From the NCBI GenBank assembly GCA_016871055.1, contig VFZW01000016.1, positions 1-37,313 of the forward strand: 37,313 nucleotides of DNA, read 5' to 3'. A program made the translations under genes and the position numbers. Source of the stretch: Acidobacteriota bacterium (GTDB lineage: Bacteria; Acidobacteriota; Terriglobia; Bryobacterales; Bryobacteraceae). The notes under the pieces were generated by a model, which searched no databases, was not told the origin of the DNA, and saw nothing but the letters and a program-made list of their open reading frames with translations. Below are positions 5,433 through 37,313 of the stretch, in pieces; positions within the stretch are counted from its first letter, which is position 1; each line of letters opens with the position of its first letter.

Positions 5433-7451
5433 ATGCTTTGGCGTCTCACCTTCTGCACTGCCTTTGCCGCGATTGCCGCCACTCTCGACGTCGAAACGCT
5501 CATGCGCATTCAGCGCATATCGGACCCTCAACTATCGCCCGACGGGAAGACCGTTGCCTTCGCGGCGCAGCGTGTCGATCTGGCCGCGAACAAGAAGACC
5601 ACGCAGATCTATAACGTTACGCTTGACGGCTCTTCGCCCAAAGCCGTTACGTCGGAGGGCTCCAACGACCGGCCTCGCTGGTCGCCCGATTCCAAGCGGC
5701 TGCTGTTTGTTTCCGATCGAGGCGGTTCGTCGCAGGTCTGGATCATGAATGCCGACGGTTCCGCACAGAAGCAGGTCACCAAACTCGCGACGGAAGCCTC
5801 GGGCGTGCTTCCCTTCCCGGACGGCAAACGCATTCTGTTCCTGAGCGAAGTCTATCCGGAATGCAACGACGAAGCGTGCAACGAGCGCATGCTGAGGGAA
5901 GAGAAAGAGTCGAAGTCAAAGGCGCGCGTGTACACGTCGCTGCTGTATCGACACTGGAATACGTATCAGTCTAAACGCCGCAGCCATTTGATGATGGCCG
6001 ATATCGGCGGCGGCGCGGTGAAGGACCTCACGCCCGGCCGGTTCGACGTCCCGACGTTCTCGCTCGGCGGCCAGGACGGTTATGCGATCTCCTCGGATTC
6101 AAAAGAAGTCTGCTATGTGATGAATGGCGAGAACGATCAGGCGCTGTCGACCAACAGCGAACTTTGGACCGTGTCGCCGGAGAGCGGCGAGCCGCGCAAA
6201 ATCACGATCACGGCGGGCGCCGATGTGGGGCCGGTTTATTCACCCGACGGCCAGTGGCTGGCTTGGCGCGGCCAGAAAACGGCTGGCTATGAAAGCGACC
6301 GCTGGCGGCTGTTTCTGATCCAAAGATCGAGCGGAAGCGTTCGCGATTTGACCGAGACGCTGGACCGGTCGGTGCAGAGTATCTCGTGGTCGCCGGATTC
6401 GACGCGCTTGTTCTTTACGGTTGAAGACCGCGGCCGGCAGGGCATTCAGATGTTCGCGGTCAATGGGAGTGGCGGGGCGCGGTCGATTGTCTCCGGCAGC
6501 GCGACTTATGACGACGTTCAACTTACTCCCGACGGCAAGACGATGATCTACACGATGCAAACCGGCTCCAAGCCCGTGGAAATCTTCAAGGTTCATTCTT
6601 CCGACAACAAGCCCGTGCCGCTGGCCAAGCTGAACGACGGAGTGATGGGCGGATTGACGTTGCCGGCATTTGAGGACATAACCGTTACAGGCGCCGAGGG
6701 CGCAAAGGTTCATAGCTTCGTGTTGAAACCGCCCGATTTCGACTCGAAACAAAAGTACCCGGTATTGTTTTTCATCCACGGTGGCCCGCAAGGCGCGTGG
6801 CATGAATCGTGGAGCTACCGCTGGAATCCGCAAGTCTTCGCGGCGGCGGGATTCGTGGTTGTAATGCCGAACCCGCGCGGCTCAACCGGCTACGGTCAGA
6901 AATTCACCGATGAGATCAACAACGACTGGGGCGGCAAGGTCTACGAAGACATCATCGCGACGGTCGACCATGTGGCGGCGCAGCCGTGGGCCGACGCCGG
7001 GCGATTCGCCGCTGCGGGTGGCAGCTATGGCGGCTACATGGTGAACTGGATGCTCGGCCACACGCAGCGATTCAAGGCGTTCGTTTCGCACGCGGGCGTG
7101 TTCGACCTGCGCAGCATGGCGGGCGAGACCGAGGAGTTGTGGTTTCCGATGTGGGAGTTCCGAGGCATGCCTTGGGACAACGCGGAGTCGTATGCGAAGT
7201 GGTCGCCAAGCCATTATGTGAGCGAGTTTCAAACGCCGACGCTGGTGATACACGGCGATCTGGATTACCGCGTTCCGGTGGGCCAAGGCCTGCAGCTCTA
7301 CACGGCGCTGCAGATGAAGAAGGTGCCGTCGAAGCTGCTGCTGTTCCCCGATGAAGGGCACTGGATACTCAAACCGCAAAACAGCGCGGTGTGGCACAAA
7401 CACTTTCTCGACTGGATTACCGAGTGGACGAAGAAGCCTTCGAAACCCTGA
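5433..7451 (+). CDS. S9-family prolyl oligopeptidase (DPP5/acylaminoacyl-peptidase-like)
   Basis: A 672-residue secreted serine peptidase. Residues 1-16 form a signal peptide. A TolB/WD40-like beta-propeller follows (about 20-400, with repeated SPDGK and SPDSK blades). The C-terminal alpha/beta-hydrolase has the oxyanion strand HGGPQGAW and the triad Ser531 (GGSYGGYM), Asp611 (HGDLDYRV) and His643 (DEGHW). The architecture and WSYRWNPQ stretch resemble bacterial dipeptidyl-peptidase 5, which trims dipeptides from oligopeptides in the periplasm; the exact specificity is inferred. It is monocistronic or the head of the run leading to scpA, which begins 20 bases downstream. The start is preceded by a -10-like hexamer rather than a ribosome-binding site. 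Confidence 0.93.
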   Translation: MLWRLTFCTAFAAIAATLDVETLMRIQRISDPQLSPDGKTVAFAAQRVDLAANKKTTQIYNVTLDGSSPKAVTSEGSNDRPRWSPDSKRLLFVSDRGGSSQVWIMNADGSAQKQVTKLATEASGVLPFPDGKRILFLSEVYPECNDEACNERMLREEKESKSKARVYTSLLYRHWNTYQSKRRSHLMMADIGGGAVKDLTPGRFDVPTFSLGGQDGYAISSDSKEVCYVMNGENDQALSTNSELWTVSPESGEPRKITITAGADVGPVYSPDGQWLAWRGQKTAGYESDRWRLFLIQRSSGSVRDLTETLDRSVQSISWSPDSTRLFFTVEDRGRQGIQMFAVNGSGGARSIVSGSATYDDVQLTPDGKTMIYTMQTGSKPVEIFKVHSSDNKPVPLAKLNDGVMGGLTLPAFEDITVTGAEGAKVHSFVLKPPDFDSKQKYPVLFFIHGGPQGAWHESWSYRWNPQVFAAAGFVVVMPNPRGSTGYGQKFTDEINNDWGGKVYEDIIATVDHVAAQPWADAGRFAAAGGSYGGYMVNWMLGHTQRFKAFVSHAGVFDLRSMAGETEELWFPMWEFRGMPWDNAESYAKWSPSHYVSEFQTPTLVIHGDLDYRVPVGQGLQLYTALQMKKVPSKLLLFPDEGHWILKPQNSAVWHKHFLDWITEWTKKPSKP

Positions 7452-32528: not shown

Positions 32529-32768
32529 GTGTCGAACGCGTAACCGTTACCCTTCCAGATGATTTAGTGTGGGACATCGACCGACGAGAGAAGAATTGCA
32601 GCAGGGTTCATCGCGGAGGCCGTGCGTAGCGAACTCGATCGTCGTCGGCGCGAGGAACTTCGGCGCTCTCTCGAAAACCCCCATCCAGAGAGCCCCGAGT
32701 TTGCAGGACACGCCCGCCAAGCAACCATCCGGACGGTATCCGCTCGCCAACCAGACGTGGAACTATAG
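32529..32768 (+). pseudogene. Frameshifted ribbon-helix-helix (CopG/MazE-like) antitoxin remnant
   Basis: One frame from 32531 reads VERVTVTLPDDLVWDIDRRE, the beta-strand and first helix of an RHH antitoxin. At the GGG run (32604-32606) one extra base shifts the continuation into another frame, which reads FIAEAVRSELDRRRREELRR and then SLENPHPESPEF. This matches, from memory, small antitoxins common in Acidobacteria. A second slip near the start (GTG at 32529) would be needed to reach a start codon. After PEF the family similarity is lost and the frame ends at TAG 32766-32768. No PIN or MazF toxin gene follows, so the module is a relic. Confidence 0.6.
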
Positions 32769-32771
32769 AAT
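32766..32771 (+). promoter_or_regulatory. -10 element of the membrane-protein operon
   Basis: TAGAAT ends 6 bases before ATG 32778, the start of a 26-codon leader frame, so the transcript would begin at that ATG. The hexamer overlaps the stop of the antitoxin remnant. Confidence 0.4.
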
Positions 32772-32777
32772 ATAACA

Positions 32778-32858
32778 ATGATCGCGAACGTACTCCAGAA
32801 ACCCCTACCGCCGCCGCGCGTGCGATGCCGGTCAACAGCTCAGGAGTCCACGCATTGA
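32778..32858 (+). CDS. Possible 26-codon leader ORF
   Basis: ATG 32778 opens a short frame (IANVLQKPLPPPRVRC and on) that ends at TGA 32856-32858. That stop overlaps the TTG (32855-32857) that I favour as the start of the following membrane protein, giving a TTGA coupling site. A Shine-Dalgarno AGGAG (32842-32846) lies inside the leader, 8 bases before the TTG. The peptide contains PLPPPRV, a proline run that could slow ribosomes. Function as a leader is inferred. Confidence 0.35.
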   Translation: MIANVLQKPLPPPRVRCRSTAQESTH

Positions 32859-34825
32859 CCGAACGCCGGACTTGGGTCCTGGATTTCTTCCTAATCGTCG
32901 TGATGGCGGCCGTTTTGATCTGGCCGATCTTCAAGACAAAGTACTACGAGAACTGGGGAACGATCGATTCCACGTTCATCGCCGACGGCCGCTACCTCTC
33001 CGAAAACCTGCCGCACCCCGGCTGGCAGCCGCTTTGGTACGGCGGCGCGCGCTTCGACTACGTCTACCCGCCGGCGCTGCGCTACGGCACCGCGCTGTTG
33101 ACCAAGGCGCTGCCGATCATCCCCGCGCGCGCCTATCACCTCTACACTGCGATCTTCTACACTCTCGGCATCGGGTTTATCTATCTGCTCGTCCGCATCG
33201 GCAGCCGCGCGCGCGGGTATGCGTGGTTCGCCGCGATGGCGGCCGCGACGCTCTCGCCGACATACCTGTTCCTCGCCCACATCCGTGCCGACACGCAACC
33301 GTTTATGCCGCAGCGGCTCAACGTGCTTGTGCGCTACGGCGAAGGCCCACATATCACGTCGTTCTCGATACTGCCGATCGCACTTGCGCTGGCGTGGTAC
33401 GGTTTGCGCGCGGGCAAGCACCGCTGGCTGGCGGGATCGGCCATCGCTTGCGCCGCGGTCGTCTCGAATAACTTCTACGGCGCGACGTCGCTCGCGATCT
33501 TCTTCCCAATCGTTTGTTGGGCCGTCTACACCGAAACGAGAGACTGGAAAATTCTCATCCGCGCGGCCGTCACCGCGCTGCTTGCTTACGGCCTCTGCGC
33601 ATCTTGGCTTTCGCCTTCGTTTCTCAAGATCACTTCGAGAAATCTTGCGCTAGTGGCACAGCCCGGCAACTGGTGGTCGACGGCCCTGGCGCTCCTAGCG
33701 GCCGCTGCCTTTATCGCGGTCACTTGGCGGTGGGCGCGGCGCGGCATGTCCGCATGGACAATCTTCGTTCTCGGCGCGGCGCTCTTCTTTTCGCTCAACG
33801 TTCTCGGCCACTACTACTTCCAGTTCCGAGTCTCCGGCGAACCCGAACGGCTCGTTCCCGAAGCCGATCTCTGCATCATTCTGCTCCTCGGCCTGGCGCT
33901 GCACTCCGCGTGGAACAAGTGGCCGGACGCCAACCGCCGCGCGCTGACCGCCGCGCTCGCCGTCGCGCTTTTCGTTCCCGGTGGCGCGTACCTCGTCAAG
34001 CCCTGGCATCATCTTGTTGTACGCACGTCGGAATACAAGCACCGCCTCGAATATCAGATCGCCGAATGGGTAAACACCCACCGCCCCGGTATGCGCAACT
34101 ACGTTACAGGCACGTTGCGCTTCTGGTGGAATGTCTGGTTCAGCGAAGCGCAACTGGGCGGTGGCTCCGAACAGGGCCTGCAGAACATGACCATCATGCC
34201 CATGTTCTGGAAACTTGTGCTTGGCAACGAAGGGAAACACGACAAACTCTGGCTCCAGGCGTTTGGTGTCGACACACTAATCGTCAATGACAAGACTTCC
34301 GATCTGCCGATCTGCGATTTTCAACACCCGCACAAGTACAAGGGCGTATTGCCAGTCCTGTGGGAAGACGGCAAAGGCAATTGGATCTACGAAGTGCCGC
34401 GTAAACATCCCGGGCTGGCGCGCGTTGTCGAATCGTCGCGTTACGCAACGCTTCGCGAACCGGCCAACGGGGAAGACATGGAAGCGGTGGCGAGTTACGT
34501 CGCCGTCCTCGAGTCACCCGAGACGCCGGCGGCTTCGACCAGGTGGCTCGCCAGCGATACTCTCGAAATCGCGGCCGAAACGAAGGCCGGCGAGTCGCTC
34601 GCCATACAGGTCGCGCACGACCCGTATTGGCGCGCCGAAGAGAACGCGACGCGCTACGACGTCTCGAAAGACCCGTTCGGCCAGATGCGCGTCGATCTCC
34701 CAGCGGGAAAGCACCTCATTCGCATACGCTTCGAAACGCCGCTCGAGAATCAAATCGGCCGCGCCGCTTTCGCGGCATCGATCCTGATCGCCTGCCTGCT
34801 ATTGCTCCGGAAACAGCCGAAATGA
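32855..34825 (+). CDS. Polytopic membrane protein, PTPS-related/YfhO-like (first paralogue)
   Basis: 656 residues from TTG 32855, chosen for the strong AGGAG 8 bases upstream; ATG 32825, 30 bases earlier and in frame, is the alternative and has no ribosome-binding site. About ten to twelve hydrophobic segments occupy the first 420 residues, starting with VLDFFLIVVMAAVLIWPIF. A loop with DGRYLSENLPHPGW and YVYPPALRYGTALL recalls the 6-pyruvoyl-tetrahydropterin-synthase-related membrane domain, and VLVRYGEGPH is shared with the next gene. The C-terminal part is a YfhO-like extracytoplasmic beta domain followed by one last segment (AAFAASILIACLLLL). These are GT-C-like proteins of uncertain function, possibly glycosyl transfer to surface polymers. 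The stop overlaps the next ATG (ATGA). Confidence 0.8.
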   Translation: MTERRTWVLDFFLIVVMAAVLIWPIFKTKYYENWGTIDSTFIADGRYLSENLPHPGWQPLWYGGARFDYVYPPALRYGTALLTKALPIIPARAYHLYTAIFYTLGIGFIYLLVRIGSRARGYAWFAAMAAATLSPTYLFLAHIRADTQPFMPQRLNVLVRYGEGPHITSFSILPIALALAWYGLRAGKHRWLAGSAIACAAVVSNNFYGATSLAIFFPIVCWAVYTETRDWKILIRAAVTALLAYGLCASWLSPSFLKITSRNLALVAQPGNWWSTALALLAAAAFIAVTWRWARRGMSAWTIFVLGAALFFSLNVLGHYYFQFRVSGEPERLVPEADLCIILLLGLALHSAWNKWPDANRRALTAALAVALFVPGGAYLVKPWHHLVVRTSEYKHRLEYQIAEWVNTHRPGMRNYVTGTLRFWWNVWFSEAQLGGGSEQGLQNMTIMPMFWKLVLGNEGKHDKLWLQAFGVDTLIVNDKTSDLPICDFQHPHKYKGVLPVLWEDGKGNWIYEVPRKHPGLARVVESSRYATLREPANGEDMEAVASYVAVLESPETPAASTRWLASDTLEIAAETKAGESLAIQVAHDPYWRAEENATRYDVSKDPFGQMRVDLPAGKHLIRIRFETPLENQIGRAAFAASILIACLLLLRKQPK

Positions 34826-36792
34826 CTCGCCTCTGGACGCCGGCGATTCTGCTAATCCTGTTGAACGCGCTGCTCAACTGGCGCATCCTGCTTCCGGGCG
34901 TCACCGTTTATCGCGGATCGATCGAGTCCGGCTACGCCTACATGGGCAAGATATTCGCGGCCAATCCAGACTATCTGTCGTGGAATCCGCTCCAATACTG
35001 CGGCATTCCGATGCACTTCGTTTATCTGCCGTTGGTACCCTATCTCGACGCGCTTTTCATGCGGCTTCTACCGGATGCCGACGCAACGAACGTCCATCGC
35101 GTCGTCTGCTCGATCGCGGTATTTATCGCGCCCGCGTTCTTGTATTGGCTGCTGCGCGATTGGACCGGCGATACTCGCTTGGGAGTGTGGTCTGCCATCG
35201 CCCTGACGTTTCTCTCGCCGCTCTATCGTTTGATCGAAGTCATCAACCTCGATCGCGGCGTACTGAAAGTGCCATGGCGCGTTCAAGTCTTGATCAAGTA
35301 CGGCGAAGGGCCCCATGGCGTCGGGCTTGTCTTCTTTCTGCTTGCGCTTCTATTTGTTCGCCGCGCTGCGCTCACCGGTGGACGCAACGTGCTTTACGCT
35401 GCCATCGCGCTCGCCGCCACCGTGCTGTCGAGCTGGGTGGCCGGTCTCGCCCTGGCGTTCGCTGTTTTGATGCTCTTGTTCGTGCATTTGCGGGACGCCG
35501 AGTTTCACCATCGCCGTGTGATTCTTTCCGGGCTGATCGGTTACGGCTTCGCGTGCTTCTGGCTCACGCCCTCGTTCGTCGCGCAGATGGCGTACAACTG
35601 GCCGCAGGATGCATTCGGATTTCAGTTCCAGCGCATTGAGCGAGTCTCGATGATCGCGTGGGCCGTCGCGCTTCTTGTTATTCGCGCCGCGTTCCTCCGA
35701 TTCCCGTCGCAGCGCTACCTTTGCTGGATTCTGCTGTGCGGATTCGGATTCGGATTCCCTGTCATGCTCTTCTACCGCTACGGCATTAATCCGTTTCCGG
35801 AGTCGCGCCGCTACGCGCTCGAGTTCGAACTCTTCGTCATTTTGGTTTGGGTGGCGTGCGTCCGAATGCTGCGCGCCAAACCCGATTGGCGTTGGCGTTG
35901 GGCGGGCATGTTCGTCCTGCTCATGGGACTGCTCTCCGAGACGCCGCACGTCGTCAAGTACACGACGCACTTTTACTCGGCCTGGAAACCCGTACCGGTC
36001 CGAGACGCCAAGCAGCACAAGATCGCGGCCGCCATCGCGGCTTTACAGCCGAGCGGGCGTGTGTTCGCCAGCGGCGAGACGCGGTTCCGCCTAAACGCCT
36101 GGTATCCGGTCGCTCAAGCGGGTGGGGTCTTCGAGTCCGGCCTGAAGTCGCGCACCGCGCTCGCTCTTGCGTTTCAATTGCGGACCGATCTCGGAATACC
36201 AGCGGGCCACGAGGGTGAGGCCTCGGTGCATCTGCTGCATGCCCTCGGCGCCGAGTACATCGTCGTCCATGACGCGACTTCCGACGATTTCTACCGGGAC
36301 TTTAAGAACCCCAAGAAGTTCGAAGGCGTGCTCGAAAAGGCCTGGTTCGACGGCGGCGATGCAATCTACCGCGTACCGCACTTCCGCTTCGCGCTCCCAG
36401 TCACGGCCGAGGAACTGCCCCGCGGCTTGGCGATCGACGGTGATCGCAATCCTTGGAAAAAGTACAGCGAGGCCATCGCCGACCCGGCTCGCCCGCAGCT
36501 GGACTTCACTTGGCGCACCGCGCGCTACGCCGCCATCACGGGCGCGCTGCAAAGTGGCTCGACCATCGCCATCAATGTCCCGCACGATCCGAATTGGCAC
36601 GCCTACATCAACGGCCGGCCCGTCCCGCTCGCGAAGACCGCCGTCGACATGATGACGGCGGGCCCGCTTCCCGCCGACGGCGGACGACTCGATTTACGTT
36701 TTGAACCCTCGACCGAAGAATACGCCTGCGCGGCGATCAGCGTCTTTACGATTCTTGGCGCGATGATCTTCTTCTTGCGCAAGAGGTCCTAA
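34822..36792 (+). CDS. Polytopic membrane protein, PTPS-related/YfhO-like (second paralogue)
   Basis: 656 residues from ATG 34822, the same length as the preceding protein from its TTG start. The frame is open further upstream, but ATG 34822 gives a clean first membrane segment (LWTPAILLILLNALLNWRIL) and an ATGA overlap with the previous stop. It shares the order of parts with its neighbour: an early loop ending in NPLQYCGIPMHFVYLPLVPY, the motif VLIKYGEGPH, a CFWLTPSF segment, a C-terminal extracytoplasmic domain (INVPHDPNWHAYINGRPVPL) and a final anchor (SVFTILGAMIFFLRKRS). The pair looks like a tandem duplication, possibly working as a heterodimer. The substrate is unknown. The YihY/BrkB gene starts 4 bases after its stop. 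Confidence 0.8.
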   Translation: MTRLWTPAILLILLNALLNWRILLPGVTVYRGSIESGYAYMGKIFAANPDYLSWNPLQYCGIPMHFVYLPLVPYLDALFMRLLPDADATNVHRVVCSIAVFIAPAFLYWLLRDWTGDTRLGVWSAIALTFLSPLYRLIEVINLDRGVLKVPWRVQVLIKYGEGPHGVGLVFFLLALLFVRRAALTGGRNVLYAAIALAATVLSSWVAGLALAFAVLMLLFVHLRDAEFHHRRVILSGLIGYGFACFWLTPSFVAQMAYNWPQDAFGFQFQRIERVSMIAWAVALLVIRAAFLRFPSQRYLCWILLCGFGFGFPVMLFYRYGINPFPESRRYALEFELFVILVWVACVRMLRAKPDWRWRWAGMFVLLMGLLSETPHVVKYTTHFYSAWKPVPVRDAKQHKIAAAIAALQPSGRVFASGETRFRLNAWYPVAQAGGVFESGLKSRTALALAFQLRTDLGIPAGHEGEASVHLLHALGAEYIVVHDATSDDFYRDFKNPKKFEGVLEKAWFDGGDAIYRVPHFRFALPVTAEELPRGLAIDGDRNPWKKYSEAIADPARPQLDFTWRTARYAAITGALQSGSTIAINVPHDPNWHAYINGRPVPLAKTAVDMMTAGPLPADGGRLDLRFEPSTEEYACAAISVFTILGAMIFFLRKRS

Positions 36793-36918: not shown

Positions 36919-37313
36919 TGTGGTTCTCGCAAACCCCGAAGTTGCTGATAAATTGGGGGTTGTCCTTCATCCTTCGATTCCCTTGTTTGCCTCCGTTGGT
37001 GGCGCCGGCGGCGGCTTTCTTGGCTTTCTTTCGCCAGCGAATGGCGCTTCAGCTTGAGATTCTGGCCCTCCGCATCAGCTCGGTGTACTGCAACGGTCGA
37101 TACAGCGGCTGAAGCTGACGGCTGCGGATCGATTCCTGTGGGCCTTGTTGGCGGCGGTCTGGACGGATTGGCAACTGAGTTCCATTATTATCAAGCCGGC
37201 GACGGTGATCGGTTGGCATCGCAAGGGCTTCCGGCTGTTCTGGACGTGGAAGATTCGGCGGGGGAGGCCGGGGCGACCGGCAGTCCCGGCGGATGTCCGA
37301 TCCTTGATTCGTG
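36919..37313 (+). mobile_element. Insertion sequence (IS3/IS481-like rve transposase), left part
   Basis: The element begins where YihY similarity stops; I place the boundary near 36919-36922 at a TGTGG, because many elements of this group start with TG, but neither the terminal repeat nor a target duplication can be confirmed. It extends past the window edge. Confidence 0.6.
37041..37313 (+). pseudogene. Frameshifted integrase-core transposase, N-terminal part
   Basis: From ATG 37041 one frame reads ALQLEILALR; after CTCCGC at 37068-37073 the continuation lies in another frame as VLQRSIQRLKLTAADRFLW, then KPATVIGWHRKGFRLFWTW and RRGRPGRPAVPADVRSLIR to the window edge. In related transposases these are joined as LALRHQL-VLQRS, which would be restored by adding one C before the ATC at 37074. 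A single-base deletion (or sequencing error) therefore separates the two parts. The family is the integrase-core (rve, DDE) transposase group common in Acidobacteria. The first 80 bases of the gene may start at a non-ATG codon further upstream (for example TTG 37020). Confidence 0.7.

Follow-up and report, generated by a model that had tools for sequence, protein, structure and literature searches.

Results

The locus and its two membrane-protein genes

The stretch of DNA analysed here (the window, 37,313 nucleotides in full) is contig C16 of G000, a 7.1 Mb metagenome-assembled genome whose closest named relatives are Acidobacteria/Bryobacterales metagenome-assembled genomes. It carries a short leader reading frame followed by two tandem genes for membrane proteins, P1 and P2, with a gene relic on one side and a truncated gene and a multicopy element on the other (Table 1). 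The leader frame reads MIANVLQKPLPPPRVRCRSTAQESTH; its ATG at 32778 follows a -10-like TAGAAT (32766–32771) by 6 nt, and its TGA (32856–32858) overlaps the TTG (32855–32857) from which the P1 frame of 656 amino acids extends to a TGA ending at 34825. P2, likewise 656 amino acids, runs from the ATG at 34822 to a TAA at 36792, its start overlapping the P1 stop as ATGA. The block surrounding the TAGAAT would be expected by chance only 0.04 times in the window with up to 3 mismatches allowed. The original prediction, made from the letters of the window, had placed the -10 box, the 6-nt gap, the ATG, the 26 codons, the TGA/TTG overlap and the AGGAG, and all of these are exact to the base.

Table 1. 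Coordinates of the features at the leader, the operon and its flanks
Feature	Position	Strand	Basis and remarks
Frameshifted relic, ribbon-helix-helix (CopG-type) antitoxin-like	32531..32765	+	RHH_5 below cut-off; marks the junction, outside the device
Promoter block TATAGAATATAACA	32764..32777	+	-10-like TAGAAT inside; conserved before P1 or P2 in G002, G003, G004, G005, G007, G011, G014, G018
Leader mini-ORF, ATG start	32778..32858	+	Frame and comparison with relatives; 26 codons in the window, 10 in each relative
Inserted stretch, net 48 nt relative to closest homologue (G007)	32786..32838	+	Alignment; absent from G007
Shine-Dalgarno AGGAG for P1, within the leader frame	32842..32846	+	Sequence reading; 8 nt before TTG
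P1, GT-C-fold membrane protein, probable glycosyltransferase, 656 aa, TTG start	32855..34825	+	AF2 model and structure match
P2, paralogous GT-C-fold membrane protein, 656 aa, ATG overlapping P1 TGA	34822..36792	+	BLASTP, AF2 model and structure match
BrkB/YihY-family gene, truncated, first 42 codons	36797..36922	+	Full length in relatives and at native locus
Multicopy element, IS-like by eye, frameshifted	36920..37313	+	Own-genome matches; cuts BrkB gene, reaches contig end
P1-less loci in relatives	L051 1830-1910; L053 about 5486-5560; L052 about 5991-6090; L109 1207-1290; L110 3951-4030		Five genomes, both stop/start overlaps kept

An ATG at 32825 was considered as the start of P1 and rejected, having neither conservation nor a Shine-Dalgarno sequence. 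In G007, whose P1 is the closest homologue (81%), most of the DNA from 32786 to 32838 is missing, and conservation sets in at the TTG codon, so that TTG 32855 rather than ATG 32825 is the predicted start. Alignment of homologues, which are conserved from the TTG on, thus bears out the start that had been proposed.

P1 and P2 are 27% identical over 639 columns (BLASTP, E 5e-48). The AF2 model of P1 (pLDDT 81.9) matches yeast OST (6ezn_F; VIA Z 22.4, 434 residues, rmsd 3.7) and that of P2 (pLDDT 76.0) matches AglB (3waj; VIA Z 20.7, 430 residues, rmsd 4.6). Over residues 1 to ~520 both models match GT-C enzymes, namely OST catalytic subunits, AglB, PglB, ArnT, PMTs and arabinosyltransferases. 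As a candidate for the acidic residue that GT-C glycosyltransferases have in their first extracytoplasmic loop, D38 of P1 aligns with a glutamate in P2 (IES) that is also found in one P1 homologue. A search of solved structures by sequence gave no convincing match for P1 or P2, and NCBIfam gave no name for either. The pair had been described as GT-C/YfhO-like, of which the GT-C fold stands in the predicted models, but the scores against YfhO (PF09586; 21.8 and 19.4 bits) fall below the Pfam gathering cut-off of 28.5. Both proteins do have the same length, a feature without evident meaning since a related pair measures 655/659 residues and P2 orthologues 658–659; equal length as a sign of function was therefore rejected as coincidence.

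Because relatives in the outer branch of the genus carry a family 2 glycosyltransferase (GT2) gene directly upstream, joined to P1 by TTGA, P1 and P2 are probably GT-C glycosyltransferases that use a polyprenyl-phosphate sugar. By analogy with YfhO systems, the likeliest function would be the addition of sugar from such a donor outside the membrane; the substrates are what we infer beyond the predicted folds. YfhO and the multi-component transmembrane glycosylation systems (PMC5836110, PMC8035078) resemble the pair in having a GT-C membrane enzyme, in the GT2 upstream in the outer relatives and in the weak PF09586 match, and differ from it in that here the match is below the Pfam cut-off, two GT-C paralogues stand in tandem and no flippase gene was recognised adjoining them.

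The leader in related genomes

The sequence TATAGAATATANCA followed by RTGA recurs at this operon in eight genomes of the same genus, where the RTG lies exactly 6 nt past TAGAAT (G007, G014, G002, G004, G005, G011, G003 and G018) and begins a frame that runs for exactly 10 codons to a TGA overlapping a TTG; since these loci share ancestry, such counts of recurring leaders are not independent. In G007, the 45 nt corresponding to window positions 32741–32785 are identical, and the 10-codon leader, MIAFAQESTH, likewise ends in the TGA/TTG overlap; the 10-codon frames of G014 and G002 start with GTG. In G003, G004, G005, G011 and G018 the promoter block precedes P2, and the 10-codon RTG frame again ends in TTGA, a junction shared by the window and every related locus read.

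Seven distinct mini-ORF sequences were compared, those of G004 and G005 being identical. The TG of the start codon is invariant in 7/7, the position before it alternating between A and G, and the next A, the GG of the Shine-Dalgarno sequence and the TTGA are invariant as well. In the body of the mini-ORF 3 of 25 columns are invariant, and differences among the seven sequences show no excess at third positions and no coding-type substitution pattern. It is therefore the start codon, frame and overlap that are kept, and not the sequence of the peptide. The mini-ORF is also kept in G018, which lacks a good Shine-Dalgarno sequence. In the displaced copies of P1 (G004 and G011) the block persists, with GTC where the start codon would be.

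The native loci (L047, L050, L051, L053) also share conserved TTCCGTAAT and CAGGTTAC upstream of the block, with the half-site-like words CGTAA and GTTAC; this stretch, perhaps an operator, has been lost from the window copy. The block was also considered as a genome-wide promoter motif and rejected as such, matches with up to 2 mismatches in the genome being only a few above the backward control.

An insertion holding a repeat fragment accounts for the long leader of the window

The insertion, a net 48 nt, is in frame, so the leader of the window stays open and lengthens from 10 to 26 codons. Positions 32793–32833 match a dispersed repeat at 87–96% identity in at least 8 other places in G000, where the repeat continues into further shared sequence. 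The repeat runs from CTCCAGAAACCCCTACCGCCGCCCCGCG... to ...CCCCGCGGTTAGCGGC (L113–L121), with one copy in G007 besides the copies in G000. It is this part of the leader that encodes PLPPP, which is absent from all related leaders read; being encoded in an inserted repeat fragment, PLPPP is on comparison peculiar to the window copy among those read and not conserved.

These observations bear on whether the leader is a regulatory peptide that gates P1, either through ribosome stalling at PLPPP, which EF-P would relieve, or by sensing a signal. The 26-codon frame does contain a PPP; its segment is a match to a dispersed repeat that no related leader has, and peptide sequence is not conserved. Stalling at PLPPP was rejected on the grounds of the insertion and its repeat match, and a search for a stalling leader peptide more generally found no conserved arrest or sensor sequence in the relatives, whose leaders lack PLPPP and vary in their body columns. 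Three leaders fold no better than shuffled sequences (z 0.96, 0.65 and 2.57) and Rfam gave no match for the leaders, so a structured attenuator or riboswitch was likewise rejected. With neither a stable or Rfam-like structure nor a conserved peptide, we regard regulation of this kind as very improbable. A role for PLPPP or for the length of 26 codons is not supported, as both arise from an insertion holding dispersed-repeat DNA, and gating of expression by the leader peptide, which the original prediction suggested, fares no better given its unconserved sequence, the missing third-position excess and the lack of a structured attenuator.

Loss of P1 between the leader and P2

P1 is missing between the leader and P2 in G018 and in G003, G004, G005 and G011, which fall on two branches of the P2 tree. 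The original prediction also saw in P1 and P2 a possible two-subunit enzyme; in several relatives the two are found in different places. Where P1 is missing a small frame takes its place, of 13 codons in G003, 16 in G004, G005 and G011 and 22 in G018, which begins at the TTGA of the leader and whose TGA overlaps the ATG of P2 (ATGA). In G003 the last codons of the small frame and the start of P2 (GAAATCGATGAATC) match the P1–P2 junction on contig C244 of G000, which suggests that this small frame is a remnant of P1. In the P2 tree G018 groups with the two copies of G000 and the other P1-less genomes with G014; as both G000 and G014 keep P1, the gene was evidently lost at least twice, in two independent lineages.

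The chance of the frame being kept through these events was estimated roughly as 1/3 for frame multiplied by computed stop-free chances. The insertion comes to ~0.2, the two P1 losses to 0.25 and 0.2, and the difference between 13 and 16 codons to 1/3; their product is below 0.01, an estimate made after seeing the data and ignoring shared ancestry. A stop-free mini-ORF taken singly is likely by chance (0.7–0.9 each).

Ancestry of the operon and the displaced copy in the window

In the outer branch of the genus the gene order is methyltransferase, GT2, P1, P2, BrkB and uvrB, and the TGA of GT2 overlaps the TTG of P1, so coupling at the P1 TTG looks ancestral. The inner branch lacks the methyltransferase and GT2 genes and has the leader at that position, for which reason the leader may have replaced GT2 as ribosome donor. 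Another derivation, in which the mini-ORF is the start of the relatives' methyltransferase gene left by a deletion, was rejected: the TATAGAATATA block does not stand before that gene in the outer relatives.

The upstream DNA of the closest relative, G007, is also found at the end of contig C17 of G000. Contig C244 opens within a second P1, followed by P2, a BrkB gene of full length and uvrB. By these flanks and genes the native place of the operon is on C17/C244 and the window holds what we read as a second, displaced copy. The P1 end on C244 has 88% protein identity to P1 of the window over 111 residues and the two P2 proteins are only ~50% identical; most of the native-copy P1 is missing from the assembly, in which a mix-up between copies is possible. 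The assembly breaks inside this second P1 (L042 = C244, L112 = C17). The P1 tail on C244 is nearly identical to that of the window except for a short divergent stretch at the very end, a pattern that points to gene conversion or recombination between the two copies.

Upstream, the antitoxin-like relic replaces the native region, relatives having other DNA where it stands. Its match to RHH_5 (E 0.011, below the cut-off) covers 32531–32626, the second half lies in another frame from 32607, and no toxin gene was recognised beside it. Downstream, the multicopy element has 29 matches in its own genome including itself, many of them at 86–93% identity, many at contig ends and most starting at the query's first base. 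Judged by eye, its product is a frameshifted, transposase-like protein (L182–L184), for which NCBIfam gave no match.

With native flanking genes on C17 and C244, alongside a further P1 end and P2 and with BrkB and uvrB both complete, and with the relic upstream, the repeat in the leader and the truncated BrkB, the window copy could be a decaying one whose leader no longer matters, the working operon being the native one. Against this, both P1 and P2 are uninterrupted over their full length in the window, and its promoter block is letter-perfect. We hold decay to be conceivable and on balance doubtful; it is in any case compatible with the explanation we favour, which concerns how the leader works.

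Leaderless signals in the genome and the working of the leader

Leaderless genes of the TA-led type carry TANNNT ~12 nt before the start codon in bacteria (Zheng et al. 2011, PMC3160421). Genome-wide counts were made on 1.63 Mb of G000 (L072–L091, L122–L181), in which TANNNT stands 6–9 nt before ATG 100 times where ~32 are expected, about threefold, and 5–8 nt before GTG 38 times against ~15 expected, with no such rise before CTG as a control. Since this enrichment is the signature described for leaderless genes, leaderless starts are likely in this acidobacterium and many leaderless genes would be predicted in it. The RTG of the leader sits at the enriched spacing; the signal is the same as in the TA-led genes (PMC3160421), standing here before a mini-ORF and there before genes. 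In the same 1.63 Mb, leaderless mini-ORFs coupled through DTGA showed no clear enrichment (17 at the right spacing, ~12 expected).

The reading we favour, and consider rather probable, is that a leaderless mini-ORF, through translational coupling, feeds ribosomes to the genes of a GT-C glycosyltransferase pair. From the anatomy and its conservation we infer transcription start, mini-ORF translation and re-initiation as follows. RNA polymerase would start at or beside the RTG, making the start codon the predicted 5' end of the mRNA; a ribosome would translate ~10 codons (26 here), stop at the TGA that overlaps the P1 TTG and re-initiate there, assisted by the AGGAG inside the mini-ORF; and the same handover would follow at the ATGA between P1 and P2, so that the operon would be a relay of stop/start overlaps in which the peptide itself has no specific action. 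The recurring start codon, 10-codon frame and overlaps speak for such coupling, as do the frame left open by the 48-nt insertion, the small frames at the sites of P1 loss, the GT2–P1 overlap of the outer relatives, the enriched leaderless signals and the mini-ORF of G018. Against it, the Shine-Dalgarno sequence adjoining the TTG could suffice for P1 in most loci, and in some relatives the operon lacks P1, so coupling to P1 is dispensable. The body of the mini-ORF with its non-coding substitution pattern, the GTC of the displaced P1 copies and the unclear enrichment of DTGA-coupled mini-ORFs also count against it.

The same anatomy may be read with the RTG frame untranslated. The locus would then comprise a promoter and a short 5' UTR of ~33 nt with a Shine-Dalgarno sequence for the TTG, the RTGA would be merely part of a conserved promoter/transcription-start block, and the TGA overlap would be inherited from the older GT2–P1 junction, A being the first base of the second P1 codon. 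Such a reading accommodates the block's unbroken conservation from TATAGAAT into the RTGA, the Shine-Dalgarno sequence of most loci, the GTC at the start position in two loci and the lack of a third-position excess. It sits poorly with a start codon that swaps A and G yet retains TG, with G018, which has no good Shine-Dalgarno sequence, and with a frame that outlasts both the insertion and the loss of P1; moreover, given the enrichment of leaderless-type signals in the genome, a 5'-terminal RTG would probably serve as a start. We consider the untranslated frame, taken as a whole, unlikely though worth weighing. Translational coupling of a leaderless mini-ORF to a gene starting with TTG, as the original prediction had it, is thus supported by the RTG spacing, the 10 codons and the TGA/TTG overlap that recur in eight genomes and by the enriched leaderless signals, but not in its 26-codon length, which is not conserved.

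Discussion

Mycobacteria are where leaderless coupled mini-ORFs have mostly been mapped. There, leaderless small ORFs coupled by RTGA overlaps were shown by mapping of transcription starts and ribosome profiling (Shell et al. 2015, PMC4633059), and in both cases the mRNA starts (here by prediction) with an RTG, from which a small, unannotated frame runs to a TGA overlapping the next gene's start. The present prediction differs from the mycobacterial small ORFs (PMC4633059) in its host, an acidobacterium, in the TTGA rather than RTGA junction, in the fixed 10 codons of the relatives and in the second relay frame where P1 is missing. With termination–reinitiation gene pairs (PMC6728339) the locus shares the stop/start overlap (ATGA at P1–P2), the first cistron here being a mini-ORF and not a gene. 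A limited literature search found no report of a leaderless coupled mini-ORF in Acidobacteriota. The leader of the window is best filed as a predicted case of the leaderless coupled mini-ORF already described in mycobacteria. The arrangement first noticed in it is real and leaderless coupling fits the comparison, but an insertion had been mistaken for a working part.

Tentatively, and against our own expectation, the leader may go further and be a pure relay: a mini-ORF fixed at 10 codons, whatever peptide it encodes, that took over as ribosome donor from a lost upstream gene, with the second tiny frame at the sites of P1 loss solely carrying ribosomes to the next gene. If so, selection would keep a chain of stop/start overlaps and not any product. 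This Acidobacteriota case, which has kept start codon, frame and overlaps through peptide drift and the loss of an entire gene, would offer a direct test of a pure ribosome-donor role.
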